Shown here one piece after another: positions 30,958 through 45,369 of a DNA stretch of 64,000 nucleotides; within the stretch, counting starts at the first letter, position 1, and the number at the start of each line of letters is the position of its first letter. The stretch comes from Chitiniphilus purpureus. Its GTDB lineage: Bacteria; Pseudomonadota; Gammaproteobacteria; Burkholderiales; Chitinibacteraceae. A program made the translations under genes and the position numbers. Under the pieces are notes generated by a model. The model did not search any database. It was not told the origin of the DNA and saw only the letters and a program-made list of their open reading frames with translations. The DNA lies in NCBI RefSeq assembly GCF_025642115.1, contig NZ_CP106753.1, positions 4,031,501 through 4,095,500 of the forward strand. Direction: 5' to 3'.

Positions 30958-31691
30958 AGCTGGCGCTGCTTTCAGACATCCACGGCAACCTGCCGGCGCT
31001 GCAAGCAGTGATGGCCGACGCGCAGACACGCGGCGCCACCGCGTTCGCCAACCTGGGCGACAACCTTTCGGGCCCGTTGTGGCCGCGCGAAACCGCCGAA
31101 TATCTGATGCACCAATCCTGGCCCCAATTGGCGGGCAATCACGAGCGGCAACTGCTGCAGTTCGATCCCGCACGGCACGGCGCCAGTGACGCCTACGCCC
31201 ACACCCGGCTCACGCCGGCCATCATTGGGTGGCTGCAGAGCCTGCCGGCGACGTGCCGCCCAACGCCGGACATCCTGCTGTGCCACGGCACGCCGCATGA
31301 CGATCTGACCTACCTGCTGGAAACCGTATCCGCCCCGCAGACAATGGGGCTGGCCACCCCAGGGCAGATCCGGGCCCGGCTCGGCAGCACCGCTGCCTCG
31401 CTGATCGCGTGTGGCCACAGCCACGTGCCGCGGGTGGTGATGCTGGACGGCAGCACGCTGGTCAACCCCGGCAGCGTGGGGCTGCCAGCCTATCTGGGCG
31501 ATCACCCTTATCCGCATCGCGTCGAAAACGGTGCGCCCCACGCGCGCTACGCAATTGCCAGCCGTAGCGGCACGCACTGGGCAGTCGAGCTGATTGCCGT
31601 GCCCTACGAATACGAGCGCAGCGCTGCCAAGGCACAGCAGGAAGGCCGGCTCGACTGGCAGTGTGCGCTGACCAGCGGTTACCTGCACTGA
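30954..31691 (+). CDS. YfcE/MJ0936-like metallophosphoesterase
   Basis: The 245-residue protein has calcineurin-like metal ligands in order: 'LLSDIHGNLPAL' (Asp8, His10), 'NLGDNLSGP', 'LAGNHERQ', 'LCHGTPHDDL' and 'CGHSHVPRV'. The 'LVNPGSVGLP' motif is typical of this subfamily of small phosphodiesterases. The GTG start overlaps the preceding stop. Substrate unknown. hemW begins 8 bp after its stop. Confidence 0.88.
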   Translation: MKLALLSDIHGNLPALQAVMADAQTRGATAFANLGDNLSGPLWPRETAEYLMHQSWPQLAGNHERQLLQFDPARHGASDAYAHTRLTPAIIGWLQSLPATCRPTPDILLCHGTPHDDLTYLLETVSAPQTMGLATPGQIRARLGSTAASLIACGHSHVPRVVMLDGSTLVNPGSVGLPAYLGDHPYPHRVENGAPHARYAIASRSGTHWAVELIAVPYEYERSAAKAQQEGRLDWQCALTSGYLH

Positions 31692-31699
31692 TCCACGCC

Positions 31700-32872
31700 A
31701 TGCATCGTATTTCCCTGACCGCCCTGCAATCAGGCCTGACAACCCTGCCCCCGTTGTCGCTGTACATCCATTTTCCGTGGTGCGTCCGGAAGTGCCCGTA
31801 CTGCGACTTCAACTCACATGCGCAGAAAGGCGCCCTGCCGGAGGCGGCGTATGTGGAGGCACTGCTGCGCGATCTAGAATCGTGCCTGCCGCTGGTATGG
31901 GGACGGCCGGTATCGACCATCTTCATGGGCGGCGGCACGCCCAGCCTGTTCTCCGCCGAGGCGATCGATACCCTGCTGGCCGGCATCCGCGCGCGGGTAC
32001 GGCTGCTGCCCGAGGCCGAGATCACGCTGGAGGCCAACCCGGGCACGTTCGAAGCCGACAAGTTCGCCGGCTACCGTGCCGCCGGGATCAACCGGCTGTC
32101 GATCGGTATCCAGAGCTTTGACGATGCCAAGCTGGCAGCCCTCGGCCGCATCCATGGTCGCGCCGAAGCCCTGCGAGCCGTGGAGATCGCACATCGGCAC
32201 TTTGACAACTTCAATCTGGATCTGATGTACGCGCTGCCGCAGCAGACGCTGGCCGAAGCACTGGCGGACCTGGATCAGGCCATTGCGTTGGCACCGACCC
32301 ATCTGTCGGCCTACCACCTGACGCTGGAACCCAACACGCTGTTCCACCGTTATCCACCGCCCCTGCCGGACGACGACCTTGCTGCGGATATGCAGGAAGC
32401 GATCGAAGCCCGACTCGCCGCCGCCGGCTACCAGCACTACGAAACCAGCGCCTTCGCCCAGCCCGGCCGCCGCGCCCGGCACAACCTAAACTATTGGCAA
32501 TTCGGCGACTACCTGGGCATCGGCGCCGGTGCCCACGCCAAGATCAGCTTTCCTGATCGCATCATCCGACAGACGCGCTACAAACAGCCGGCCGAATACC
32601 TTGCGCGCATCGCCCAAGGCAACGCGGTGCAAAGCGACGCCCCCATCGCCCGCGACCAGCTGCCGTTCGAATTCATGCTCAACGCGCTGCGGCTGTGCGA
32701 CGGCTTCCCACTCCCGCTGTTCACCGAGCGCACCGGTCTGCCATTGACCCAGGTGATCCGCCAGATCGAGCGCGCCTGCGACGAAGGGTTGCTGACCCGC
32801 AGCCTTGATCACGTGCACCCCACCCCGCGGGGCCGACGCTTTCTCAATACGCTGTTGGAGCGTTTTTTGTAG
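31700..32872 (+). CDS. hemW: HemW, radical SAM heme chaperone
   Basis: HemW inserts heme into target proteins and was long misannotated as an oxygen-independent coproporphyrinogen oxidase. The 390-residue product has the iron-sulfur motif 'CVRKCPYCDFN' (Cys28, Cys32, Cys35), 'FMGGGTPSLFS', 'EANPGTFE' and 'SIGIQSFDDAKLAALGRIH'. The ATG at 31700 starts right after the previous gene and gives the usual length. It is commonly linked to rdgB, as here. It is the last core gene before the toxin island. Confidence 0.95.
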   Translation: MHRISLTALQSGLTTLPPLSLYIHFPWCVRKCPYCDFNSHAQKGALPEAAYVEALLRDLESCLPLVWGRPVSTIFMGGGTPSLFSAEAIDTLLAGIRARVRLLPEAEITLEANPGTFEADKFAGYRAAGINRLSIGIQSFDDAKLAALGRIHGRAEALRAVEIAHRHFDNFNLDLMYALPQQTLAEALADLDQAIALAPTHLSAYHLTLEPNTLFHRYPPPLPDDDLAADMQEAIEARLAAAGYQHYETSAFAQPGRRARHNLNYWQFGDYLGIGAGAHAKISFPDRIIRQTRYKQPAEYLARIAQGNAVQSDAPIARDQLPFEFMLNALRLCDGFPLPLFTERTGLPLTQVIRQIERACDEGLLTRSLDHVHPTPRGRRFLNTLLERFL

Positions 32873-33019
32873 GGCAAGGCGCGGCGAAGGCAATTTGGCG
32901 CAATAGATAGCTGGACCCAGGCTCTGGAATGTGGAGCTTTGCGTCCCTCGTTCCCAGCAACTTACTGGTGGCCCAAACTTCGTACTATTTGCGTCGAATG
33001 GCGCATTCGCCCGCCGACG

Positions 33020-33409
33020 TCACCCTGTGGCCGGGCCGATAAAGTAGGCGGCTTGGCGCAATTGAATGATGGCCGTGACGCGGCGAATGCTGACGCCGTA
33101 GGCATCGATCAGGAAATTCGCCAACCGGCGTCTGCGAGCCGGCTTCACAATTTTTTGGATGACCTCCTGCAGCAGCTGTTTGCCCAGGCTCAGGTCGGCC
33201 ACCATGCGTTTGAGGCGGGCGTTCTCTTCTTCCAGCTGCTTCAATCGGCGCAGCTCAGTCACGCCCAGTCCGCCGTACTTCTTCTTCCAGTTATAAAAGG
33301 TCGCTTCGCTCACACCCATCTTGCGGCAGACCTCTGCCACTGTCGTGCCTGACTCGGCCTGGCGCAGCGCAAACGCGATCTGCTCTTCGGTGAACTTTGA
33401 CTTTTTCAT
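33020..33409 (-). pseudogene. IS3-family transposase fragment (OrfA plus start of OrfB)
   Basis: The first ~90 residues are a complete IS3-type OrfA: helix-turn-helix 'TVAEVCRKMGVSEATFYNWK' and the leucine-zipper-like 'LRRLKQLEEENARLKRMVAD'. Without a stop they continue into 'KPARRRRLANFLIDAYGVSI', the beginning of OrfB, and break off after about 45 OrfB residues. The DDE catalytic core is missing, so the element cannot transpose by itself. In intact IS3 elements OrfA and OrfB lie in different frames, so the in-frame join is also abnormal. Confidence 0.85.
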
Positions 33410-33490
33410 GACAAATCTCCTGCCCGGAGGGGCATCAAATTTGCCAGAAATCTCTACTTTTGAACGCTACGGCTTTACGGGAGGAGGTCA
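33040..33490 (-). mobile_element. Truncated IS3-family element at the end of the Rhs array
   Basis: A candidate left terminal repeat starts 5'-TGACCTCCTCCCGTAAAG on the minus strand at 33490, about 80 bp before the OrfA start, as expected for the IS407/IS3 branch. The right end is lost: recognisable OrfB ends near 33040 and no matching inverted repeat was found before hemW. Confidence 0.55.
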
Positions 33491-33537
33491 GGGATTGGAC
33501 TCCAAAGCTGCGTGCTCCTCAAACTTGGGGGGACGTC

Positions 33538-33686
33538 GCAGCCACAGGTGTTCCAGCTTCGGCTGGCCGGCGGCGTCGTATTCGCCTTGCAGCTGGCCTT
33601 GCGGATCATAGGCGTACAGCGTGGTGTCGCTGGCGTTGTCGCTCTTCTGTACCCGCTGCCCGAGTGCGTTGTAGCGGTAGTGGCGC
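33538..33686 (-). repeat. Rhs core stub, copy of a segment of the main rhs gene
   Basis: These ~149 bp repeat almost exactly the sequence at about 36824-36970 and 39924-40070, encoding 'HYRYNALGQRVQKSDNASDT' and the following residues. Similarity stops abruptly on both sides, near the IS3 left end and 17 bp after the small ORF at 33703. It looks like the start of a further displaced Rhs module whose tip was removed. Confidence 0.85.
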
Positions 33687-33702
33687 CATGGGTTTTCTTA
33701 AA

Positions 33703-33852
33703 TTATTTTGACTTTTCTCTGTTTTTTGATTTTCTTGATGAACCAAAAGATCCCATAAATCCAAGCAGGGCCACAATTGGAATCGATATGACAATAAGAA
33801 ATATAATCTTTCCCAAGAAAACAGATGCCACCCAATGAAGAAATTCATCCAT
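33703..33852 (-). CDS. 49-residue single-span membrane protein, candidate immunity to Rhs tip E
   Basis: A GGAG ribosome-binding sequence precedes an ATG at 33852, and the frame runs 49 codons to TAA. It encodes a hydrophobic core ('KIIFLIVISIPIVALLGFMG') followed by a Lys/Ser-rich cytoplasmic-looking tail. It starts 12 bp after the stop of Rhs tip E, exactly where immunity genes lie in the other modules, and is AT-rich like them. A one-span inner-membrane immunity protein would suit a toxin acting at the membrane or in the periplasm. That role is inference; no family is recognised. Confidence 0.5.
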   Translation of the reverse strand: MDEFLHWVASVFLGKIIFLIVISIPIVALLGFMGSFGSSRKSKNREKSK

Positions 33853-33864
33853 TATCGTCACTCC

Positions 33865-34541
33865 TTACCTAAATCCAGCGGCGTTGTTTGCAATCGTATC
33901 CATGGGATCAACATACTGATAATCTTTGTCGCAACTTTTGCTTTCTGCTTTGCATATTTTCTTGCAAATTATATTGCCGCCCACTTGAGTTCCGACCCAG
34001 GAGGCTACTTGAGCCACCCTAAGAGGAATAATTGGTCCTGGAAATAAAACACCACAAGCAGTTGTACACATGCTTTTCTCAATTTCTGAGTTTGTACGTG
34101 ATTCCACTGGTGCGGGTGGAAGTCCGGCTGCACATTCTGCTGTAATGCATTTGGCCGAAGTCTTCGGCCCATCGCCTGTTCCATCGTCGCATACTGTTCC
34201 CAATGGAAGTCCTGGAGGGCATGGCATTGGCTTTAAACCTTGGGGGTCGTAGTAACTAACCGGGTTCCCCCCCACATACCCATACGTATTAATCCCCCCC
34301 GCCAAGCCAATCGGATCGCTCTGAATATACCGCCCGATCCGCGGATCATAATCCCGGAAGTAGTTGTAGAACCGTCCCGTCTCCTTGTCGAAGTACTGCC
34401 CCGGGAAGCGCTGGTTGTAGGCGATCTTGACGCCGTCACCATCCGGGTCTTCGTTGGGCTGGCTGTGGCCGAACGGTTCGCCAATCGGCCAGTCTCACAC
34501 CACCTTGCGGCGGACCGGGTTGCTCAGCTAGCGTGAGGTGC
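33865..34541 (-). pseudogene. Displaced Rhs module E: decayed core plus Cys-rich tip
   Basis: The core part (about 34541-34290) is a divergent allele: it reads '[20 protein letters not shown]' where the main gene has a different sequence. It contains two in-frame nonsense codons, one of them TGA at 34495-34497 replacing a conserved Trp of 'VVWDWP'. After the junction '[20 protein letters not shown]' comes a ~125-residue tip with about ten cysteines and a hydrophobic stretch, ending '[10 protein letters not shown]'. I do not recognise the tip as a named toxin. It has no start of its own except internal Met codons, so it is probably silent unless recombined into the main gene. Confidence 0.7.
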
Positions 34542-34736
34542 CCAGGTGGTTCTACAACTACCATTTCGCCGCAGAGTTCAGGCTCTAGGGTGCTGGCAAA
34601 TGACCTTATCCTCAGCTATTCTCCGAACCGATAAAGAGTCGCCTGAAACCTGATACCTAGGTGTCTCTCGATAAATCACAGTCGGGTGCGACTTCAAAAT
34701 CCGTTTGTAACAGAGCCAGCCCCGGTATTTCGATTT
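34542..34736. other. 195-bp junction without a gene
   Basis: This stretch between the immunity gene at 34737 and the decayed core of module E has no coding frame and no match to the Rhs core. It may be the scar of a lost insertion or of the recombination that created module E. Confidence 0.4.
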
Positions 34737-35204
34737 TCAAAGAAAATTTTTTATTTCTCTAAATTCATTCAATACGGCGGAGAAAGCTTTAATTGGGACA
34801 GCTGAAGTCTGAAGCCCTTCTGGATAATTATCATGCTCGAAGAAATGTTCACTAAGGAGCTCCCATATGAATATCACTTCAGCTCCGGAACAAAACGCAA
34901 CCACCGAAAAATCGTCAAAAGAATCACCTAGAGATAAGAAATATTTCCCAGCGTCGTCAATTTCCCCGTTCTTTATCAAATCATACACGCCAAAAATATC
35001 GGTCTTCTCGGAATAAAAATCCATATTCTTGGAAACAATGCTTTCCAGTTGCGCCAAAACGAGAGAATAGACAGATGTATCATCAAGAGTCCCTATTTTC
35101 TTCCCGCCCAACCAAATTTGTAATGGGCCACTCCTCTGCTTCAAATCTTGCCTAGAGGAGAACTCTATTGCAAACACTTTTGCATCACCTAAGAATTCAC
35201 TCAT
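34737..35204 (-). CDS. Probable immunity protein of Rhs tip D (Imm42-like)
   Basis: The 155-residue acidic protein ('MSEFLGDAKVFAIEFSSRQD', 'LQIWLGGKKIGTLDDTSVYS') resembles in outline the Imm42 family of toxin-immunity proteins, which share a 'FAIEF ... lWInGkkiG' pattern; this is from memory and moderately certain. Its ATG shares one base with the stop of tip D (TGATG), so it was translated coupled to the toxin. It is AT-rich compared with the chromosome. Confidence 0.6.
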   Translation of the reverse strand: MSEFLGDAKVFAIEFSSRQDLKQRSGPLQIWLGGKKIGTLDDTSVYSLVLAQLESIVSKNMDFYSEKTDIFGVYDLIKNGEIDDAGKYFLSLGDSFDDFSVVAFCSGAEVIFIWELLSEHFFEHDNYPEGLQTSAVPIKAFSAVLNEFREIKNFL

Positions 35205-35745
35205 CACCAAGCCTTGACATCTTTAGGGATATTGTTCGAACTGATATTCCGTGGCATTCCATTAGATGTTCTGCCATTGGTCGATCCATTCCAATGCCAA
35301 TTCCCATTCCCATCGTTTTGAAAGCGGTGGTATTCAACTCTTTTCCCCTCCCCTAATTTCGTCCATCTATTCCCATCAGAACCAGGTCGGCTATTTTTTC
35401 CATAGTTCTTCATGATTTTTAGGAAGGGTGCTTTTTGAGCTGTTGTAAGGATTACTGCCTTTATTTGATGGGTCATGATGGCCTGGGTTTTCATAGCTAT
35501 CGATACGACAGCTGTCGTCACAGACACACACCTCTCCATTTATAAGCCCTAGATTCACCGATGAGCATGACTTCACAGTCAAACCATCTGCGCTGCATTT
35601 TGCCTGACATAAAGAAAACGACTGACTCGGACAAGACACCAAACCAAATGGGTCGCTAAAATTTAGCGGGCTTCCCCCCACATACCCATACGTATTAATC
35701 CCCCCCGCCAACCCAATCGGATCACTCTGAATATATCGCCGGAGT
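35204..35745 (-). pseudogene. Displaced Rhs module D: minimal core and frameshifted toxin tip
   Basis: Only about 50 bp of core remain ('[20 protein letters not shown]'). The tip starts with a Cys-rich segment ('[17 protein letters not shown]') and reaches '[11 protein letters not shown]', where the frame ends at 35391. Removing one base from the A6 run (T6 at 35394-35399 on the plus strand) restores reading into '[17 protein letters not shown]' and onward to the stop at 35204. The C-terminal ~60 residues ('VEYHRFQNDGNGNWHWNGST') look like a small toxin domain I cannot name. It is therefore inactive as sequenced unless slippage restores the frame. Confidence 0.7.
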
Positions 35746-35758
35746 GCGTTAGTTTCGC

Positions 35759-36139
35759 TTATGCCTGAAGCTGATCAATATCAATGACAGCCCCAACATA
35801 TCCAGCAAATGCTGACATTTCCACAGGGATTTGAATAGAAGGAACTCTAATTCCACCTTTAATAATGATGGACAAGCGAGCAATGCCGGTCTCAGCTATT
35901 TGACGAATAACATCTTGATTCCCATGCAATCTATCTTGCAGCCCCCTCCAATGATCAGATACTTCATCAGATTCAATTTGCGACTGCACTGACCATATAT
36001 TTTGTCTGGGCAGATCTCGAGCTTTGTTGCGCTCGCCGCGCATTAAGGCAACAGAAGGAATTATTCCAGTAATTTTTGATATTTCAGATGGCGAAATATC
36101 TGTGCCAAGCAACTGAAAATCAATCTTAATTAAATCCAT
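35759..36139 (-). CDS. Probable immunity protein of Rhs tip C (DUF4279-like)
   Basis: The 126-residue protein ('[20 protein letters not shown]', '[20 protein letters not shown]', '[20 protein letters not shown]') fits the DUF4279 family, whose members are often found directly after toxin genes. It starts 3 bp after the stop of tip C, preceded by AAGGGG. Base composition is AT-rich like the tip. Immunity function is inferred from position and family. Confidence 0.65.
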
Positions 36140-36142
36140 GGA

Positions 36143-37078
36143 TCACCACCCCTTGACATTCATATTAAGATACTGAGGAATCCCTGTGCCTTTTCTAGGG
36201 CCAGAATACATGTTCCCATTTTTATCTGAAAAAATATCGCCTTTTGAGTCTAATCCTAAGTCCCGCTTCATGTCGTGAGCATCTTTATACCCATTATTTT
36301 TACATGCTCTATCAAGCTCTTTATCAGACATTCTCGTTGCATCTTTAGCATCTTGTTCACTAGGGCTCTGATCATCTTTTGTACATGCTTGAATATCAAA
36401 ACCGGGCAGTTTTAGGAATGTTTTGCATTTAATAGCAAGGCCATAAGGGTCAACTAGGGAAATCGGGTTCCCATTAACATACCCATACGTATTGACCCCG
36501 CCCGCCAACCCAATCGGATCGCTCTGGATATACCGCCCGATCCGCGGATCATAATCCCGGAAGTAGTTGTAGAACCGCCCCGTCTCCTTGTCGAAGTACT
36601 GCCCCGGGAAGCGCAAGTTGTACGTCACCAACTTGCCGTCCAGGTCCGGGTCCTCGCGCACCCCACTATGGCCGAACGGCTCGCTGATCGGCCAGTCCCA
36701 CACCACCTTGCGCCGGGCCGGGTCGCTCAGCTGGCGCGTGGCCCCCAGGTGGTCCGCCCAGGCGTAGTACAGCTGCGCCGTGCCCTGGCTGTGCTGCACC
36801 GTACCCACCGGCAATGTGCCCAGCCACAGGTGTTCCAGCTTCGGCTGGCCGGCGGCGTCGTATTCGCCTTGCAGCTGGCCTTGCGGATCATAGGCGTACA
36901 GCGTGGTGTCGCTGGCGTTGTCGCTCTTCTGTACCCGCTGCCCGAGTGCGTTGTAGCGGTAGTGGCGCGCCGGGGTGCTGCTGCTGCGGATCAACCGGCC
37001 GGCGTTGTTGTACTGCCGTGCGCCTGGAACCGGCTTGGCCAGCAAAGCATTTTGTCCATCGGAGGCAAAAAGCGGCAA
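36143..37078 (-). CDS. Displaced Rhs module C: core fragment plus toxin tip
   Basis: This 311-residue frame begins in unrelated sequence ('MPLFASDGQNALLAKPVPGA'), joins the Rhs core at 'YNNAGRLIRSSSTPARHYRY', keeps ~175 residues of near-identical core, then leaves at 'GLAGGVNTYGYVNGNPISLV'. The tip ends 'KNGNMYSGPRKGTGIPQYLN', similar to what is annotated as polymorphic toxin type 33; that name is from memory and uncertain. Lacking the signal peptide and the rest of the YD shell, it should not be secreted. It can serve as a donor of a new tip through recombination in the core. Confidence 0.75.
   Translation of the reverse strand: MPLFASDGQNALLAKPVPGARQYNNAGRLIRSSSTPARHYRYNALGQRVQKSDNASDTTLYAYDPQGQLQGEYDAAGQPKLEHLWLGTLPVGTVQHSQGTAQLYYAWADHLGATRQLSDPARRKVVWDWPISEPFGHSGVREDPDLDGKLVTYNLRFPGQYFDKETGRFYNYFRDYDPRIGRYIQSDPIGLAGGVNTYGYVNGNPISLVDPYGLAIKCKTFLKLPGFDIQACTKDDQSPSEQDAKDATRMSDKELDRACKNNGYKDAHDMKRDLGLDSKGDIFSDKNGNMYSGPRKGTGIPQYLNMNVKGW
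36488..37014 (-). repeat. Rhs core repeat, copy in module C
   Basis: About 525 bp are almost identical to 39593-40118 in the main rhs gene, differing at a handful of bases. The match stops sharply at both ends. It is long enough for homologous recombination. Confidence 0.9.
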
Positions 37079-37335
37079 GCCAGGAATAAACCGCTTTTTG
37101 CGTTACGCCCAGAATGCCGGCAACTTCTTTGACCTTAAACCCGCTTTTGTACTGCCTGAACTGCGCGCTGCCGCATCATTTGCAACGTGTGGTGATCAAT
37201 TGCGCGGCCATATTTTTGATGGTTTTATTCAGGGCGGAATTATACCAGAATTTCACCAAACCTAAATTAAAGGTTAGTAAGGTTGGCGCGCATATTGATC
37301 ATCTATTTCCGATAAAAATCCATAAAATTCGATAG
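37079..37335. other. 257-bp region between modules B and C with an 11-bp inverted repeat
   Basis: No convincing gene was found. GCAAAAAGCGG at 37065-37075 and CCGCTTTTTGC at 37091-37101 form a perfect inverted repeat with a 15-bp loop, straddling the start of the module C frame. It could be a terminator remnant or the end of a lost insertion element. Confidence 0.4.
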
Positions 37336-37869
37336 CTATTCAAGCGGTTTTCTCTGGCACATGGCAATTGGAATTTCCGGGTGCAGTTCTTCCAAAAAAT
37401 TTGGAGCTGCAAATGATACGGAGCCTGGCGATTCACCGACGGCAACAATGAACTCCAACCCCGATTGTGAAGAAAAGGCTATTCCATTTTCTGCTATGAC
37501 ATCTTCATCTTCGTAAATAATTTTCTCAACACTTTCTATATAAAACCCACTAACTGAATGCTTTTCAAATTCAATATTTATAGAATTTTCCAATGCTTCG
37601 CCTGGAAAGAATTCTATAACCAAACTGCCGATCTCGTGCCAATCCTTGATTTGCGTGCAAACTGAAGAGAGCCTAATAAAAGATTTGTTCAAAAAAAACA
37701 ATTCTAAAATCCAGCAGGCTCTGGGGGAGTGTCCGATTGGAAATTTGTACCCTACAATCGAATTTCCAACAAACACCTTCTGAAGAAGCTCCTGTTTCGC
37801 AATGCCATCAATCTTGAATTCCAAAATCGGTCGCCTGCCTTCAAAACTCTCAGTAGTGGAGGGTTTCAT
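37336..37869 (-). CDS. Probable immunity protein of Rhs tip B
   Basis: The 177-residue acidic protein ('[20 protein letters not shown]', '[20 protein letters not shown]') has no family I recognise. The ATG at 37869 lies inside the last codons of tip B in another frame, giving a 20-bp overlap; an alternative ATG five codons upstream (37884) is possible. The overlap and AT-rich composition mark it as the partner of tip B. Confidence 0.6.
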
Positions 37870-38750
37870 GGGGTTTTTTTCCATTGGGTGGAATATCAAT
37901 ACTTTTTCCGCCTGAGCTGTTTGTTGGGCGACCAAAGATGCCATTTGCACCAACTTGACTACCAGGAGGCGCTTTGTCACCAGGCTTCCATGGGCGAGTG
38001 CCTCCGGTTAACCTCTGCAAATCTTCGTCATAGTCTCCAGTTCCCCCATGTTCAGGGCTTAATGGTCCGCTAGTATGCCTTTTCCCACCTTTATTTGGCC
38101 CGGCTCTAGGGTCACTTTGATCTCCAACTAAATCGGTTGGCACTGGAGGGCATGTAGTGTTTTCGTCTTGCTGGCTATCTATTTCCTCATTCAGATTGCA
38201 AACCCCAGCCACAAGACAAGCTGCAATCATTCCACCCATAGGCCCCAAAGCCCGCTTCGCTAAGGCGCCTACAGCTGCAGAAGCAGCTCTTCCACCAACC
38301 ACACGGACACCGACCCCTACCACGACCTGCCATGCCAGGCCTTTGGGGTCGGAGTAAGACAGCGGATCGCCTCTTACGTAGGCATAGGTATTGATTCCAC
38401 CATTGAGGCCAATCGGATCGCTCTGAATATACCGCCCGATCCGCGGATCATAATCCCGGAAGTAGTTGTAGAACCGTCCCGTCTCCTTGTCGAAGTACTG
38501 CCCCGGGAAGCGCAAGTTGTACGTCACCAGCCTGCCATCGACGTCCGGGTCCTCGCGCACCCCACTGTGGCCGAACGGCTCGCTGATCGGCCAGTCCCAC
38601 ACCACCTTGCGCCGGACCGGGTCGCTCACCTGGGCGCGCAGCGCCCAGGTGGTCCGGCCAAGCGTAGTAGAGCTATGCAGTGCCCACCAGCACGGTGCAC
38701 AAGCACAAGTTTTCCAACTTGGGCTGGTCGGCGTTGTTTTATTTCAGTAT
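37850..38750 (-). pseudogene. Displaced Rhs module B: decayed core, shared linker and toxin tip
   Basis: From 38629 an open frame of 259 codons runs '[20 protein letters not shown]' through the core end '[20 protein letters not shown]'. Upstream (38630-38750) the core is degraded: 'QPKLEN' is still readable but a TAG and a deletion follow. After the core comes the same Gly/Ala/Val-rich linker as in the main gene ('[20 protein letters not shown]'), then a distinct tip ending '[17 protein letters not shown]'. The tip family is unknown to me. Core breakage means it is not a complete secreted Rhs. Confidence 0.75.
38241..38390 (-). repeat. Linker repeat shared by tips A and B
   Basis: About 150 bp are nearly identical to 39444-39590 in the main gene (three or four mismatches). 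They encode the hydrophobic linker after the core, so tips A and B can exchange through the linker as well as through the core. Confidence 0.85.
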
Positions 38751-38762
38751 TTAAAAAGAGTC

Positions 38763-39143
38763 TTACCTAAGAAAATAAATGTCAATATTCTTTTTGTCGC
38801 TCTCATCAACATCCAATTCTTTGGAGTTGCGCATAGAGTATAATCTTCGCTCAAATATGCGCTGCACTTCTTCAGCTCTGATTTGCTCGGTTTTTATCGA
38901 GGTAACAAAAATTGCAGCCGCGTGCAATACCTCATATATAGATAAATGCAAGCAACGCAGCATAATTTCATCTTCGCGCCCTATGCTTTTCCATTCAATT
39001 GAATCGGAAAGAACTCCAAGACCGGAAACAGTATAGCTGCCTCTCTTATCTTTATATCGAATCTCGGACAGATCTATAGTATCCGGCCATTCTTTTCTAT
39101 TTTCTTCAAAAAAATCAAAAAATTTAGATTTAAAAATACTCAT
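38763..39143 (-). CDS. Probable immunity protein of the expressed Rhs tip A
   Basis: The 126-residue protein ('MSIFKSKFFDFFEENRKEWP', 'EIMLRCLHLSIYEVLHAAAI') has no recognised family. The ATG at 39143 overlaps the rhs stop (ATGA) and is preceded by GAGGA, so it is translated right after the toxin. A longer form beginning inside rhs is less likely. AT-rich composition contrasts with the core of rhs. Confidence 0.65.
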   Translation of the reverse strand: MSIFKSKFFDFFEENRKEWPDTIDLSEIRYKDKRGSYTVSGLGVLSDSIEWKSIGREDEIMLRCLHLSIYEVLHAAAIFVTSIKTEQIRAEEVQRIFERRLYSMRNSKELDVDESDKKNIDIYFLR

Positions 39144-41335
39144 TTCCTCACCCTGCCGTCTGGCCAAACGCTGTTTGGCACTTTTCCTTTTTCCCAGGAT
39201 TTTTTATCAGACCACCGTTTCCACTGATCTCCACCGTGACTTGATGTGTCCCGTTCCCATACAGAACCATCCGTCTTGCATCGCTTTCCTTTTGAGCCTT
39301 TTATTGGCTCAAAATCATCCGGCGCAGTATCTGGGTTGTCTGGGTAAACAACTTGGTCACTTTCGTCATTACTAGAACTATCATCACTTTCATTTAAGGT
39401 GCAAACACCAGCAAGCACACAGGCTGTTACCATGCCAACGGTCGGCCCCAAAGCCCGCTTCGCTAAGGCGCCTACAGCTGCAGAAGCAGCTCTTCCACCA
39501 ACCACACGGACACCCACCCCTACCACGACCTGCCATGCTAGGCCTTTGGGGTCGGAGTAAGACAGCGGATCGCCTCTTACGTAGGCATAAGTATTAATCC
39601 CCCCCGCCAACCCAATCGGATCACTCTGGATATACCGCCCGATCCGCGGATCATAATCCCGGAAGTAGTTGTAGAACCGCCCCGTCTCCTTGTCGAAGTA
39701 CTGCCCCGGGAAGCGCAGGTTGTACGTCACCAACTTGCCATCGACGTCCGGGTCCTCGCGCACCCCACTGTGGCCGAACGGCTCGCTGATCGGCCAGTCC
39801 CACACCACCTTGCGCCGGGCCGGGTCGCTCAGCTGGCGCGTCGTGCCCAGGTGGTCCGCCCAGGCGTAGTACAGCTGCGCCGTGCCCTGGCTGTGCTGCA
39901 CCGTGCCCACCGGCAATGTGCCCAGCCACAGGTGTTCCAGCTTCGGCTGGCCGGCGGCGTCGTATTCGCCTTGCAGCTGGCCTTGCGGATCATAGGCGTA
40001 CAGCGTGGTGTCGCTGGCGTTGTCGCTCTTCTGTACCCGCTGCCCGAGTGCGTTGTAGCGGTAGTGGCGCGCCGGGGTGCTGTTGCTGCGGATCAGCCGG
40101 CCGGCGTTGTTGTACAGGTTGGCGCCGTAGTTGACCATGTTGCCGGCGGCATCGTAGCTGTACTTGCCGTCCAGGCCGGCCCCGGCGACGCTGAGCACCT
40201 GGTTGTTGGCCGGATGGTGGGTGAGCAGGTTGATGGCGGCGCCGGTGTGCTTCTCGGTGCGGTTCCCATTCAGGTCATAGCGGTAGCTGTACTGGGTGGT
40301 GCCGATGCTGGCCTGGGCCAGCCGGTCCATGCGGTCGTAGCCATAGCTGCGCAGCGCGGCGGTGCCCGGGTCCTGGCGGATGAGGTTGCCGACGGCGTCG
40401 TAGCTATAGCTGAACTGGCTGTCGGCCAGCGTGAGGCCGGCGACACGGCCCTGGGCATCGCCGGGGGCCTGGCGCAGTTGGCCATTGCCCCAGCGCCAGG
40501 CGAGAGGGCGACCGTCGGTGCTGTAGTGCAGCTGGTCCAGCAGTGGCTGGCCGTTGACGCGCATGGCGCTGACCTGACCATGCTGCCAGTCGTATTCGAC
40601 AATGGTGCCGGAGGGGTAGGCGATGCGGTTGAGCTGGCCGGCGGCGGTGTAGCCGTACCGGGTGACCAGGGTGGCGTTGCCGAGCTGGCGGGTCACCTGC
40701 GCCAGGCGGCCCTGCGGGTCGTAGCTGTACTGGGTGCTGCCGCTGGCGTCGCTGAAGCCGGCCGGCTGGCCCGTGCCGTTGGGCGGGTCGTAGCTGAACT
40801 GGTGGGTCTCGTCGCCGAAGGCGATGCGGGTGGGCCGGCCCAGGTCGTCGCGGGTGACGCTGGCGGTCTTGCCGCGGGCGTCGGTCCTGCTCTGGGGCAG
40901 GCCACTGGCGTCGTAGGTGGTAGTGCTGCTGCCGCTGTCGGGGCTGAGCAGGCGGATCAGGTCATCGAAGCCGTTGTAGGTGTAGGTGGTGGTGAAGCCG
41001 AGGGCATCCTTGACGGAGACGAGGTTGTCGCGGGCGTCGTAGCGTAATTCGACGATGCCGCCGTCGGGATGGGTGATGCGTACCAGGCGGTTGAGGGGGT
41101 CGTAGGCGTAGCGGGTTTCGCGGCCGAGGGCGTCCTTGCGGCTGGTGCGGTTGCCGTTGGCGTCATAGGTGAAGGTGGTCTGGTGGCCCTGGGCATCCAT
41201 GATGCGTTCGAGCCGGCCGAGCGCATCGTAGTCGTAGAAGGTGCTGACAGTGGCCTGATGGGCCGGCAGTGCGGCGTGGGCCAGGCTGCCGGCCAGGGCC
41301 AGCCCGGCCAGCAGCAGGGGGCGGAACAAGGTCAT
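39140..41335 (-). CDS. Secreted Rhs/YD-repeat protein 2 with toxin tip A
   Basis: The 731-residue protein starts with a Sec signal peptide ('LLLAGLALAGSLAHAALPAH', cleavage near residue 21), followed by about 20 YD repeats ('GRLERIMDAQGHQTTFTYDA', 'GNRTSRKDALGRETRYAYDP') and the Rhs core ending '[20 protein letters not shown]'. YD repeats build a closed shell around the C-terminal toxin, which is released after the core. Tip A (~130 residues) has a hydrophobic Gly/Ala linker, an acidic spacer and a basic Trp-rich end ('SSHGGDQWKRWSDKKSWEKG'); similar ends occur in contact-dependent toxins, but I cannot name the activity. It starts 33 bp after the stop of YD protein 1. Confidence 0.85.
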   Translation of the reverse strand: MTLFRPLLLAGLALAGSLAHAALPAHQATVSTFYDYDALGRLERIMDAQGHQTTFTYDANGNRTSRKDALGRETRYAYDPLNRLVRITHPDGGIVELRYDARDNLVSVKDALGFTTTYTYNGFDDLIRLLSPDSGSSTTTYDASGLPQSRTDARGKTASVTRDDLGRPTRIAFGDETHQFSYDPPNGTGQPAGFSDASGSTQYSYDPQGRLAQVTRQLGNATLVTRYGYTAAGQLNRIAYPSGTIVEYDWQHGQVSAMRVNGQPLLDQLHYSTDGRPLAWRWGNGQLRQAPGDAQGRVAGLTLADSQFSYSYDAVGNLIRQDPGTAALRSYGYDRMDRLAQASIGTTQYSYRYDLNGNRTEKHTGAAINLLTHHPANNQVLSVAGAGLDGKYSYDAAGNMVNYGANLYNNAGRLIRSNSTPARHYRYNALGQRVQKSDNASDTTLYAYDPQGQLQGEYDAAGQPKLEHLWLGTLPVGTVQHSQGTAQLYYAWADHLGTTRQLSDPARRKVVWDWPISEPFGHSGVREDPDVDGKLVTYNLRFPGQYFDKETGRFYNYFRDYDPRIGRYIQSDPIGLAGGINTYAYVRGDPLSYSDPKGLAWQVVVGVGVRVVGGRAASAAVGALAKRALGPTVGMVTACVLAGVCTLNESDDSSSNDESDQVVYPDNPDTAPDDFEPIKGSKGKRCKTDGSVWERDTSSHGGDQWKRWSDKKSWEKGKVPNSVWPDGRVRK
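39593..40118 (-). repeat. Rhs core repeat, copy in the main gene
   Basis: This ~525-bp GC-rich segment of the main rhs gene recurs at 36488-37014 (near identical), 38404-38640 (partial), 34290-34541 (diverged), 35697-35745 (short) and 33538-33686 (internal piece). The copies define the boundaries of the displaced tip modules. Confidence 0.9.
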
Positions 41336-41368
41336 GGTAGGGATCCGGGTAAGCATGGGGACGGGGCC

Positions 41369-43648
41369 TTATTGCGCTTGGGGCGTGCCGGGCAGCTGCT
41401 GCGCGGCGGTGACGGCCTGCTGGGCCCCGGCCAGGGTACCGGCCGGGTCGTAGCGGTCTTCGCGTTTGCGGTTGCCGGCGTTGTCCAGGGTGTAGTCGAT
41501 GCGGCTGCCGTCGCTGTGGTCGATGCCAATCAGGCGGTGGGCCGGGTCGTAGCGATAGCTGAGCCCGCTGCCATCGGGCAGGGTGACCTTGCTGAGCAGG
41601 CCGGTGGGCAGATAGTCGAAGCGGGTCTGGCCTTCCGGAGCGCTGCGCAGGATAAGGCGCTGGCGCAGGTCGTAGCCGAAGGTGGTGCTGCGGTTGTCCG
41701 GGTCGATCTGCTCCAGCAGGTTGCCGTGGGCGTCATAGCGGGGATAGCGGGTGACCTGGTTCAGCGGGTTGGTCACGGTGGCGAGGTTGCCCTGGGCGTC
41801 GTAGCTGTAGCGGGTGAGCTGGCCCAACGGATCGGTCGCGGTCTCCAGCAGGCCATTGGGCAGATAGGTCCAGCGCCAGGCGCGGGTGACGCCGTCGGCG
41901 GTGATCTGCTTTTGCAGCAAGTGGCCTTGGTCGTCATAGCTGAAGGTAGTGACGCGGCCGGGTTCGGTGAGGGTGGCGGGCAGGCGGAAGGTGGGGTGCC
42001 AGGTGGTGGTGACGGTGCGGGCCTGCGGGGTGCCGGCGGCTTCGGTGCGGGTGGTTTCGAGGTTGCGGGTCAGGTCGTAGCCGTAGGTGGTGCTCACGCC
42101 GTTGAAGTCGGTGCGGGACTGGACGTTGCCGTTGGCGTCATAGCCGAGCGTGGCACTGGCCGGGCCGCAGCCGGCGCCGCCGGGCTGATCCTGGCCGGTG
42201 AGCAGCCAGCGCTTGCCGATCTGGGTGAAGTGGTAGCGGCGGTTGGTGCCGAGGGGATCGGTCTCGGTGGTGGTGCGGGTGCTGCCGGCCTGGGTGAAGG
42301 CGAGGCCGACCTTGTCGATGCCCCCGGCGTGCTCGGAGGAGATGGCCTCGCCATCGGCGTTGTAGCGCCAGGTGGCGTAGCGCACCCCGGCTTCGTCGGT
42401 GATGCCGGTCAGGAGGTAGGGGTTGGGGTCTTCGTAGTGGTATTGGCGGCTGGTCTGGTCAGGGTGGGTGACCGAGACCAAGCGACCCTGCGTGTCGTGC
42501 GTGAACCGAATCTCCGTGCCATGCTGGACTTCGACTTTCTTCAACTTCAACCCACTGTCGTAGTGGAACAGGAGATTGGCGCCATTCGGGGTCTCGACCC
42601 AGTTCAGGGGCCCGTCGTCGCGATAACCCAGCTTGGTGCTGCGGCCGTTGTCATCGATCCGGATCAGGCGGCCCAGCGTGTCATAGTATTCGGCCTTGTT
42701 GCCTTCGATGATCCGGAAGCCATCCTGATTCACCACGAAGCGGTAGCGCGCCGCGGCCGGGTCCAAGGGTTGCCCGGTCAGGCTGAACGGATAGGCGCGC
42801 CCGTCCGGCCGTTCCAGCCGGTAATTGGCCGGCATGGCCATGGTCGCCTCGGAGAAATGGGCCACCCAATCCGGATCGATATCCACCTGCATTTGCTGGG
42901 ATGAAGCAGGTGCGGCTGGCAAGTGCTCGTGCAGCGGCCATGCTACCGGATCGTCTGCCCGCACAATGCGCGATTGGAACGCATGGCGCCAGCCGATGCC
43001 CAGCCCCAGGTCCTGCAACAGCATCGAGTTATAGGCCCTGAAGAAACCAAGCGGGACCGAGGTATCGTTTTCAAGTTGGTATTTGTTTGCCACATGCAAC
43101 GCCACCGGATTGCCGGTCTTGGGGCAAGCCTCGCCGACATTGGGATCGGGGCATTCGCCGAATACACAGTGCCCACGGTATGCCTGGCGGCAGCCATTGA
43201 CGCTCTTGCTCAGATAGGCACCCCGCGGACAGATCGGGCGGCAGGACTGGCTGACCGAGCCCAAATAGCTTCCGGGCGGGCAGGAAGGCGTGACTTTCGC
43301 GACTAAATCATAAGAGGCCACATAACGGCCGGGGGGAGCCCGCTCACGTACCGATACCCCGTAGGTTTGTACCAATATTGTTCCGCCCCAACTATTACAT
43401 GAAGCCTCCCAATCCGGACGTGCATGGACCGTTTTAAGTGCCAGCTCACACACTGGGTGATCAACACTGATGTAGTTTCCTTCAGCGCTGCCAATGTAGT
43501 GATATTCCGGGCCTGAATCATTTTTTCGCATTTCCACACTCCACCGCTCAGCAAAAGCCGCCGGCATCAGAAACGCAGCGATCAAGAACATCCAAAGGAC
43601 CCCAAGCTTTTTTTGGGGAAACCCGTTTTTATCGAGATGAATACGCAT
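41369..43648 (-). CDS. Secreted YD-repeat protein 1 with Cys-rich/DUF6531-like N-terminus
   Basis: The 759-residue protein starts with a signal peptide ('KKLGVLWMFLIAAFLMPAAF', cleavage near residue 33). Residues ~35-180 hold a Cys-rich region ('CPPGSYLGSVSQSCRPICPR'), followed by 'GNPVALHVANKYQLENDTSV', which matches the start of DUF6531 in Rhs proteins. From ~350 on it is YD repeats. It ends without a core or toxin at 'LPGTPQAQ', and rhs 2 begins 33 bp later, so the usual Rhs shell appears split over two exported proteins. The ATG at 43648 was chosen because it sets the signal peptide near the N-terminus. A PAAR domain is absent. Confidence 0.8.
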   Translation of the reverse strand: MRIHLDKNGFPQKKLGVLWMFLIAAFLMPAAFAERWSVEMRKNDSGPEYHYIGSAEGNYISVDHPVCELALKTVHARPDWEASCNSWGGTILVQTYGVSVRERAPPGRYVASYDLVAKVTPSCPPGSYLGSVSQSCRPICPRGAYLSKSVNGCRQAYRGHCVFGECPDPNVGEACPKTGNPVALHVANKYQLENDTSVPLGFFRAYNSMLLQDLGLGIGWRHAFQSRIVRADDPVAWPLHEHLPAAPASSQQMQVDIDPDWVAHFSEATMAMPANYRLERPDGRAYPFSLTGQPLDPAAARYRFVVNQDGFRIIEGNKAEYYDTLGRLIRIDDNGRSTKLGYRDDGPLNWVETPNGANLLFHYDSGLKLKKVEVQHGTEIRFTHDTQGRLVSVTHPDQTSRQYHYEDPNPYLLTGITDEAGVRYATWRYNADGEAISSEHAGGIDKVGLAFTQAGSTRTTTETDPLGTNRRYHFTQIGKRWLLTGQDQPGGAGCGPASATLGYDANGNVQSRTDFNGVSTTYGYDLTRNLETTRTEAAGTPQARTVTTTWHPTFRLPATLTEPGRVTTFSYDDQGHLLQKQITADGVTRAWRWTYLPNGLLETATDPLGQLTRYSYDAQGNLATVTNPLNQVTRYPRYDAHGNLLEQIDPDNRSTTFGYDLRQRLILRSAPEGQTRFDYLPTGLLSKVTLPDGSGLSYRYDPAHRLIGIDHSDGSRIDYTLDNAGNRKREDRYDPAGTLAGAQQAVTAAQQLPGTPQAQ

Positions 43649-44259
43649 AACTGCCCGGTGAAATAAGGGTTGATTCTTGTCTGGCTGTTTCAGCTCATCC
43701 ATGCGCGCGGCAATGGCACTTGCGATGGGATTGAAGGATTGGAACAGGCCAACAATACAGTCCGAAAAATATCTTCAAGCCAGAAAGCCAAGCATTTGAT
43801 TGCCCTGCCGTATCGGTATGGAAAATCGACATGCCGCAGCCTGCACGAAGCACACCCCAGCCGGGTAGTATCCGGAACAGTGACAGCAGCCACCGTATCC
43901 ATGACCTGCACAGCACAGGCTTTCAAACCAGACAGGGCATGACATTCGCCCGAAAAACAGAGGCGAACGTCAGATTAAAGACAACCACAGGAAAAATCCA
44001 GAAAGAAAACTGCAGCCCTTGTCGTTTGCCTTGCGATTGCCGGGCAGTTGCGCAGCGATGGGCAGCACCGGAGGCGAACACCCAGGGCCACCTCAGTGGT
44101 GCCTGGCAGGTACGCGGCAGGCGTGGCTATGAAACCTTGCCCTGCAGCGGCCTACGCGCTTGCGCAGCCACGGCTTTCCGCCTGCCTTGGGGCGGCAGTC
44201 AACGATGCGTTGCTCAGCCTGCAACCGGCGTCATCCGGCGTCGGTGGACAGCAGGTGAC
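43649..44259. other. 611-bp intergenic region upstream of the Rhs operon
   Basis: No gene, RNA or clear terminator was recognised. It separates two minus-strand units: the MscS channel gene ends at 44260 and the Rhs pair starts at 43648. Composition shifts from AT-richer near the Rhs side to GC-rich near mscS. The Rhs promoter must lie here but no consensus stood out. Confidence 0.4.
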
Positions 44260-45369
44260 CTACCCCCTGCCCTCCCCCGAGTTGCCGGCGGGTTGCTCGG
44301 GCTGGGGTTGTGGCGGCTGCATCAGGTCGCCGCCGGCATAGCGCAGCCGTTGGATCGGCGTGGCGAATTCGATGTCTTCGCGCTCGAACGCCGAGACCAG
44401 CTCCAGGTTGATCTGCTGCTGGATATCCATATAGAGGTTGAAATCCGGGTCCAGCACGAAGTAGACCACTTCGAAGGTGAAGGCGGCATTGCCAATGCCC
44501 TGGAAGTGGGCGCGATCCAGCCGCACCTTGTCGCGCGCGCCGATGATGTCGCGCAGCATGCCCGGGATGCGTTCGAGCTTGTCGCGCGGGGTGTCGTACG
44601 GCACCGCCACGCTGAATACCACGCGCCGCTCGCGCAGTTTCTGATAGTTGCGGATGCGGCTCTTGAGCAGATCGTCGTTGGAGAACACCAGCTGCTCGCC
44701 CGAGAGGCTGCGCACCCGCGTGGTCTTGAGTCCCACCCGCTCGATGTTGCCCATCATGTCGCCGACGATGATGAAGTCACCCACCACGAACGGCTTGTCG
44801 AGCACGATGGCAAGCGAGGCGAACAGGTCGCCAAGGATGTTCTGCACCGCCAGCGCCACCGCCACGCCACCGATGCCCAGGCCCGCGACCAGGCCGGAGA
44901 TGTTGAAGCCCAGCTGATCGAGCACGATCAGCAGGATCATGCTCCACAGCACCACGCGCGCGATGAAGCCGAGCACGGTCATCGCCGTGGCCGCTTCGGC
45001 ATCCAGGCTGCGCCGCCGTTCGGTTTCGGCATTGAACCAGGCGACAAGCCCGCGGTTGAGCCATAGCGCCAGCTGCAGGATGAAGGCGATCAGCGCGACG
45101 ATGGAGAGCGTGCTGTCCACCTTGCCCGGCAGCGTCAGACCGTTGGAGCCCACCTTGAGCGCGATCGGCAGCAGCAGCCAGAAGCGGGTGGCCGAGAACG
45201 AGGCGGCCCAGGCCTGGGCCAGCACTGAGCTGCGCGCCTGCAGGCGTGGTGCCACATAGCGGGTCAGCACCGCGCGCAACAGATAGATCGCCAGCAGTGT
45301 CGCGACCGTGATGGCCAATGCCACCAGAAGATCGTGTTGATTGTTGGCGCGCAGGATCTGACGAAGCAT
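44260..45369 (-). CDS. MscS-family mechanosensitive channel
   Basis: The 369-residue protein has several N-terminal helices and the MscS pore helix region 'VAGLGIGGVAVALAVQNILG', followed by 'DKPFVVGDFIIVGDMMGNIE' of the beta domain and a cytoplasmic 'VFSNDDLLKSRIRNY'. Such channels open under membrane tension and release solutes during hypo-osmotic shock. Its start shares a base with the stop of the AsmA-like gene (TAATG), so it is part of the trehalose gene cluster, which fits osmotic balance. The last ~20 residues are Pro/Gln-rich. Confidence 0.9.
   Translation of the reverse strand: MLRQILRANNQHDLLVALAITVATLLAIYLLRAVLTRYVAPRLQARSSVLAQAWAASFSATRFWLLLPIALKVGSNGLTLPGKVDSTLSIVALIAFILQLALWLNRGLVAWFNAETERRRSLDAEAATAMTVLGFIARVVLWSMILLIVLDQLGFNISGLVAGLGIGGVAVALAVQNILGDLFASLAIVLDKPFVVGDFIIVGDMMGNIERVGLKTTRVRSLSGEQLVFSNDDLLKSRIRNYQKLRERRVVFSVAVPYDTPRDKLERIPGMLRDIIGARDKVRLDRAHFQGIGNAAFTFEVVYFVLDPDFNLYMDIQQQINLELVSAFEREDIEFATPIQRLRYAGGDLMQPPQPQPEQPAGNSGEGRG

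Follow-up and report, generated by a model that had tools for sequence, protein, structure and literature searches.

A two-gene Rhs system with signal-like N-termini and a train of displaced tip and immunity modules in Chitiniphilus purpureus

Arrays of displaced toxin tips are typical of enterobacterial rhs loci, long arrays included (PMC2935791). In the parts of that paper drawn on here (Jackson et al. 2009, PMC2935791), attached and displaced cores form one clade, and tips derived from other loci are little evidenced. In Salmonella, an orphan tip can join the main gene via recombination in the core (PMC3967940); the orphan shares 95% core DNA identity over 522 bp, which permits its fusion to the main gene (PMC3150448; PMC3967940). 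A signal peptide combined with RHS repeats and a polymorphic tip is a listed trafficking class (Zhang et al. 2012, PMC3482391), and these papers too are cited for parts of their text. Here we describe a 64,000-nucleotide (nt) stretch of Chitiniphilus purpureus (contig NZ_CP106753.1, positions 4,031,501 to 4,095,500; hereafter the window), the minus strand of which carries an Rhs island made of one Rhs gene pair, its immunity gene, four displaced modules and a core stub. This layout had been put forward in the original prediction and was confirmed in all its parts, and the island represents C-terminal displacement of the kind known in enterobacteria, as that prediction had stated. The island probably encodes a two-polypeptide exported Rhs weapon accompanied by a silent reserve of tips, and the two-gene exported shell is a less expected feature than the displaced tips.

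The gene pair consists of gene 1 (41369-43702, minus strand, as are all features below), which codes for the N-half of an Rhs shell (777 amino acids, aa) with a signal-like N-terminus, a variable cysteine-containing head, a DUF6531 domain and YD repeats, and gene 2 (39140-41356), which starts 12 nt past the gene 1 stop and codes for the C-half (738 aa) with its own signal-like N-terminus, YD repeats, the Rhs core end and tip A. Both matched the RHS repeat family PF05593 in Pfam (E 1e-55 in gene 2 and 2e-46 in gene 1). Tip A (39140-39585), the toxin end on the intact core, is followed by its candidate immunity gene immA (38763-39143), the start of which overlaps the tip A stop. Downstream lies module B (37850-38733), with a damaged core start (38733-38680), core (38685-38383) and tip B reaching down to 37850; the ATG of immB (37336-37869) falls within the end of this tip. 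Module C (36143-37013) contains a core fragment and tip C, a match to Ntox33 under the Pfam cut-off, and precedes immC (35759-36139; DUF4279). Module D (35204-35743) keeps 57 nt of core and tip D, and is followed by immD (34737-35204; Imm42 match under cut-off). Finally, module E (33865-34550) joins a mosaic core fragment of two lineages, with in-frame stops upstream, to tip E; the immE candidate (33703-33852) codes for 49 aa with a single hydrophobic stretch, and the tipless core stub (33539-33686) ends the train next to an IS3-type transposase orfA remnant (33020-33490; open reading frame (ORF) 33409-33020). GC content falls from 67.5% in core A and 63% in gene 1 to 40-53% in the tips and 33-41% in the immunity genes. 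TIGR03696 was above cut-off in gene 2 and modules B and C, and below it in module E. The expectation that each module would comprise a core fragment, a tip and a small gene held for B, C, D and E, except that tip D is interrupted, its ORFs 35391-35711 and 35204-35539 being out of frame with each other; in the sister genome G001, the D frame breaks at nearly the same point (window 35391-35407 and L045:3505-3641).

Core segments were compared with gene 2 by blastn. Identity was 91.0% of 489 nt for module B (38685-38197, reaching 186 nt into the tip), 97.0% of 530 nt for module C (37013-36484), 93.0% of 57 nt for module D (35743-35687, E 5e-18), 82.9% of 316 nt for module E (34550-34238) and 100% of 148 nt for the stub (33686-33539, corresponding to core A nt 1287-1434). 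Near-identity of the copies, as predicted, was thus found for A, C and the stub, but not for E, which is mosaic, nor for D, of which 57 nt are left. Core boundaries were sharp; core homology to two further islands of the chromosome (L001 and L003) ends at core nt 1771, and each tip is trailed by a small ORF. The tips, compared by tblastx (E 1e-3) with the first 30 nt of every tip excluded, showed no similarity in 9/10 pairs; tips A and B are the exception to their supposed unrelatedness, since they share their first 186 nt at 91%. Displacement of tips through recombination in the core was in this way supported. As in the enterobacterial loci (PMC2935791), an intact core with one tip is followed by an AT-rich array with a sharp core/tip boundary, and as in orphan rhs-CT/rhsI modules (Poole et al. 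2011, PMC3150448; Koskiniemi et al. 2014, PMC3967940), the modules lie downstream of a main rhs with which they share core DNA; unlike what the consulted parts of those two papers describe, two signal-bearing genes with no PAAR match in Pfam make up the main system here, and four orphans plus a stub follow them.

The following mechanism is proposed. The products of gene 1 and gene 2 would each be exported via Sec by their own signal, and perhaps onward via a type II secretion system (T2SS); the genome encodes one (GspD above cut-off). Outside the cytoplasm, the halves would form a single closed Rhs shell enclosing tip A; release of the tip would take place at the conserved end of the core, and immA would shield the producer. 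Modules B-E may be earlier or imported tip/immunity pairs that homologous recombination has moved downstream, with crossovers falling in the last 100-250 nt of the core, which are near-identical among the A-type copies of this chromosome. Since the displaced modules lack an export signal and an N-half, their toxins would not be delivered. Protection by their immunity genes may persist, and a fresh crossover could return a stored tip to the shell. The sequences themselves show the layout, the split kept in 8 genomes, the fold halves, the chimeric core joints, copies across islands, the sharing of module D and selection on immD; we infer the two-half assembly, the export route, the antibacterial activity, the protection by displaced immunity genes and the re-use of tips.

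A reserve of immunity genes had been predicted, and a set of such genes was supported: compared with its counterparts in two sister species, immD had a ratio of nonsynonymous to synonymous divergence (dN/dS) close to 0.30 (dN 0.38-0.42; dS 1.26-1.37, thus above 1, for window pairs). The immE candidate, a 49-codon ORF (33852-33703) under the 60-aa limit of the ORF list, has a counterpart in the island L002, where an ORF contains a stretch 55% identical to it over 47 residues. The train could then be an immunity island maintained for protection alone, its displaced toxins being dead weight that is never re-used. The frame of tip D is broken while immD is conserved, and in-frame stops occur in the module E core, both of which would suit this explanation. 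However, tips B, C and E are still in open frames joined to core DNA, and the last 64 codons of tip D are little changed in protein (dN about 0.1, dS saturated), so that we hold a purely protective role to be possible, yet unlikely.

Alternatively, the modules might be cassettes imported by other routes, transposition included, with the core fragments serving as landing homology only. An IS3 remnant at the end of the train and the non-core stretch before module C would be compatible with this. This stretch, which follows immB and spans about 320 nt (37014-37335), gave a short helix-turn-helix-like reading by eye and is possibly an insertion remnant. Module D was moreover found at other sites in both sister genomes (G001 and G002, same genus, both drafts): in G001 within another train (72% DNA identity over 958 nt), and in G002 at a contig end, with its tip unbroken. 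The tip A end is common to ten other proteins (49-78% identity) across other genera and phyla, Nitrospira sp., Pseudomonas cavernae and Paraburkholderia sp. among them, which marks it as a travelling toxin end; neither tip A nor tip B was detected in other genomes of the family (0/42 at E 1e-3). Against import as the sole origin, all modules carry core lineages of their own genome, in register, on the same strand and up to the same boundary region, which leaves this explanation improbable in our view. Among all the loci fetched, 44/70 tips were of displaced type by frame length, contig-end cases included, and an all-against-all comparison of the 64 tips longer than 45 aa (the 6/70 of 45 aa or shorter being left out) gave 12 similar pairs at E 1e-4.

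The succession of modules had also been expected to give a readable history of tip replacement, and this was not borne out. Successive pushing should make core identity drop with distance, and the values (B 91, C 97, D 93, E 83 and stub 100%) do not form a time series; a chronological stack was accordingly rejected, as identity is non-monotonic with distance and the E and L003d1 cores are mosaic. The module E core passes from window type to L002 type and back to window type (single-split p 0.002). L003d1 is of L002 type and then of window type (73/77 versus 1/37 lineage-informative sites, with a permutation p of 5e-5 that is the floor of the test). Over the last 104 aligned core columns, B and E were 100% identical to each other and 97% identical to A, and A, the L001 main core and L003d1 were mutually 100% identical. 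The lineage switches in E and L003d1, together with the joint that B and E share, indicate that exchange has overwritten age. From these shared columns and the 186 nt common to tips A and B, the final part of the core is, on sequence grounds, the crossover joint, kept alike among A-type copies.

Exchange seems to extend beyond this island. Three further islands of the chromosome (L001, L002 and L003) hold the same two-gene system, and their cores are 98.1% (L001, nt 1-1771), 96.9% (L003, nt 109-1771) and 72% (L002) identical to that of the window. Displaced modules are present in L001 and L003, and L001d belongs to the other core lineage though the main core next to it is A-type. A tree of 62 cores grouped the three A-type copies of this chromosome together, as it did the four of G013, and two G008 cores clustered with database relatives; the within-genome clustering points to probable exchange inside each genome. 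Across L001-L003, L056-L058 and L060, cores were mostly far more alike within a genome than between genomes, L002 excepted, a likeness that suggests concerted evolution. In contrast to the single clade of attached and displaced cores in the cited part of PMC2935791, two lineages (72% DNA identity) mix here among islands and inside modules, lineages being set by identity and not by the clades of that paper; within this limit, the mixing of two core lineages goes beyond the enterobacterial pattern described there. The island is in this respect another well-preserved case of displaced tips, with evidence of exchange across islands and core lineages.

To assess the division of the shell between two genes, C-half genes were counted in loci L001-L007 and L038-L074. 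The count leaves out L038 (on the contig of L059), L043 and L044 (copies of the window), L065 (cut by a contig end), L051 and the short loci L008-L037, L014 of G016 included; longer versions were used where fetched. There were 18 distinct C-half genes in 8 genomes, each a separate gene: four each in this genome and in G013, three in G007, two each in G008 and G024, and one each in G018, G014 and G036. Under a home-made rule for signals, which allowed alternative starts and had no control set, 17/18 C-halves passed. An N-half gene lies directly upstream of 17/18, with a spacing of -4 to 42 nt at the chosen starts (16 measured); the N-half before L064 is cut by a contig end. A CBM5/12 module exceeded the Pfam cut-off in 7/12 scanned C-halves, at the site of the split, and in L003, on the chromosome of the window, gene 2 bears a signal and this chitin-binding module (E 3e-14) ahead of the core. 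The C-half of L066 has a head of about 1,100 residues; ahead of its Rhs core, this 1826-aa protein (L066:4064-9544) combines CBM5/12 with crystallin-like, peptidase-inhibitor I36 and laminin-G-like domains.

The split was further reflected in one-chain homologues and in database relatives. Six near one-chain homologues (L039-L042, L069 and L070) join the matches to both genes within 8 residues, at the site of the split; the gene 1 match is weak in L039 and L040, and L040 is cut at its 5' end. Two more distant one-gene Rhs proteins, L004 and L005, are near-identical to each other (open frames, 2015 and 2008 aa), are separated by about 17.6 kb and both have a Hint-like stretch near the end. Among database relatives of gene 1, 32/118 stop close to the split, and in 31 of these the end falls 12-19 residues past the N-core. 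The 120 listed relatives of gene 2 divide into 72 long proteins, 4 truncated ones and two sets of short-headed proteins, 19 carrying a signal and 25 lacking one. In the core tree, which included 36 hand-chosen proteins of these 120, 30/34 split rows formed one group (support 92/94, not starred), 25 of them at 100/100. Five loci (four of G013 and one of G014) have two tandem N-half genes before gene 2, the first being cut in three of them by the ends of the fetched stretch. These tandem N-halves may be alternative or additional shell halves, and exchangeable N-halves are proposed. The tandem N-halves of L056, L057 and L058 (G013) and of L067 (G014) end at about the same point.

Predicted folds, obtained as single-chain models, correspond to the N-half (gene 1) and the C-half (gene 2) of a single Rhs shell. 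In sequence, the two halves resemble the one-chain Rhs 8h8a (E 8e-50 and 3e-31) far more than they do TcC of the toxin complexes (Tc; best E 1e-8). TcB and TcC are likewise the N- and C-half of one shell, and the gene layout and the separately predicted folds agree with such a division. In fold alignments, gene 2 begins some 20-40 residues before the TcC start, and gene 1 gave no SpvB or propeller match in Pfam, unlike the TcB head; here, in addition, the N-half may be duplicated and the C-half may bear binding modules. With respect to the type VI secretion system (T6SS), gene 1 gave no match (Pfam, E 0.1) to PAAR or VgrG, the N-terminal fusion expected of a T6SS Rhs effector, and its N-terminus is signal-like. 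The single-gene Sec/T2SS-type Rhs proteins of PMC3482391 are one chain, in contrast to the two exported halves here, and the part of that paper drawn on makes no mention of a split. No description of a split, two-gene or chitin-binding Rhs was found in searches of an open-access library, most subscription papers lying outside its scope.

Several observations weigh against a two-polypeptide exported weapon with exchanged tips. Among the C-halves, that of L002 fails the signal rule, having no K/R, and that of L060:4425-6806 has no adjoining N-half; the N-half upstream of L063 is short, at 398 codons; and in G002 an uncounted gene 1/gene 2 pair at a contig end (L051) has its C-half in two frames. 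Distant one-chain Rhs proteins show no joint, their best local matches lying 46 residues (L004/L005) and 567 residues (L055) apart. The split label takes five changes on the core tree, at least three of them forced by starred branches, and no bootstrap tree shows a single change; the additional changes arise because four database proteins of unknown context (P0102, P0108, P0109 and P0116), labelled split without neighbour information and counted, fall outside the split group. On single-chain shells, the models of the two halves share about 100 residues (8h8a: 149-688 versus 580-1131), which would imply a larger joint shell or a shifted repeat register. The host carries T6SS sheath genes, so that delivery by a T6SS is conceivable, and a promoter and terminator scan gave 5 promoter-like and 12 terminator-like sites versus 6.4 and 11.8 expected from shuffles, that is, no excess. 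As for exchange, the single-breakpoint test gave no signal in B, D and L003d2 (p 0.16-0.28), module C has zero lineage-b sites in it, and the p of 0.005 for the stub depends on two sites at the stub edge.

A view of the two genes as one Rhs gene that has broken, or as an assembly error, in a decaying locus with no exported product, might be drawn from the fused one-gene homologues, the decayed pieces nearby and the two-frame C-half of L051, but it is very improbable given an identical break point in 18 loci of 8 genomes followed by a signal-like start in 17, CBM5/12 at the break in 7/12 scanned C-halves, long open frames kept at protein identities to G013 of 59-63% (gene 2) and 42-57% (gene 1), and 32/118 gene 1 relatives ending near the split, 31 of them within the same few residues. 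A broken gene would hardly produce such a pattern.

With a two-gene exported shell as the preferred explanation, we lean towards a broader proposal, that these systems may form a delivery class of their own: shells of two separately Sec-exported subunits, from the Chitinibacteraceae/Neisseriales lineage, split nearly at the TcB/TcC position, with exchangeable N-halves, C-halves whose split end carries a chitin- or glycan-binding head, and tips shuffled among islands via a homogenised core end. If the two-gene shell is true, a closed Rhs cocoon can form from two exported chains, a split of the TcB/TcC kind arose within Rhs proper, and a simple two-protein in vitro system for toxin sealing and release becomes available.

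Regarding the genomic context, a PADLOC search of 10 proteins gave zero matches at E 0.1. Comparison with the sister genomes revealed no Rhs island at this place in G001 or G002 and no orthologous main tip. After hemW (window 31661-32872), both sisters carry a block that in the chromosome of the window is found at 69.5-77.6 kb (window numbering), and in G002 the order of the block of about 44.4-77.6 kb is reversed with respect to hemW. Judged from gene order around window 32870-44330 against L091-L094, the chromosome of the window is rearranged with respect to the sisters; hemW and the mscS-like gene flank one breakpoint, at the island. No Rhs core match longer than 150 nt was detected in L092-L094, which cover the hemW and mscS-like regions of G002 and the mscS-like region of G001. 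G001 does have Rhs modules some 11 kb away from hemW, past another gene block. As to displaced tips that are attached in a relative, tip D is unbroken in G002 and a main tip of G013 resembles a tip of G001, but these G002 and G001 pieces start at contig ends.
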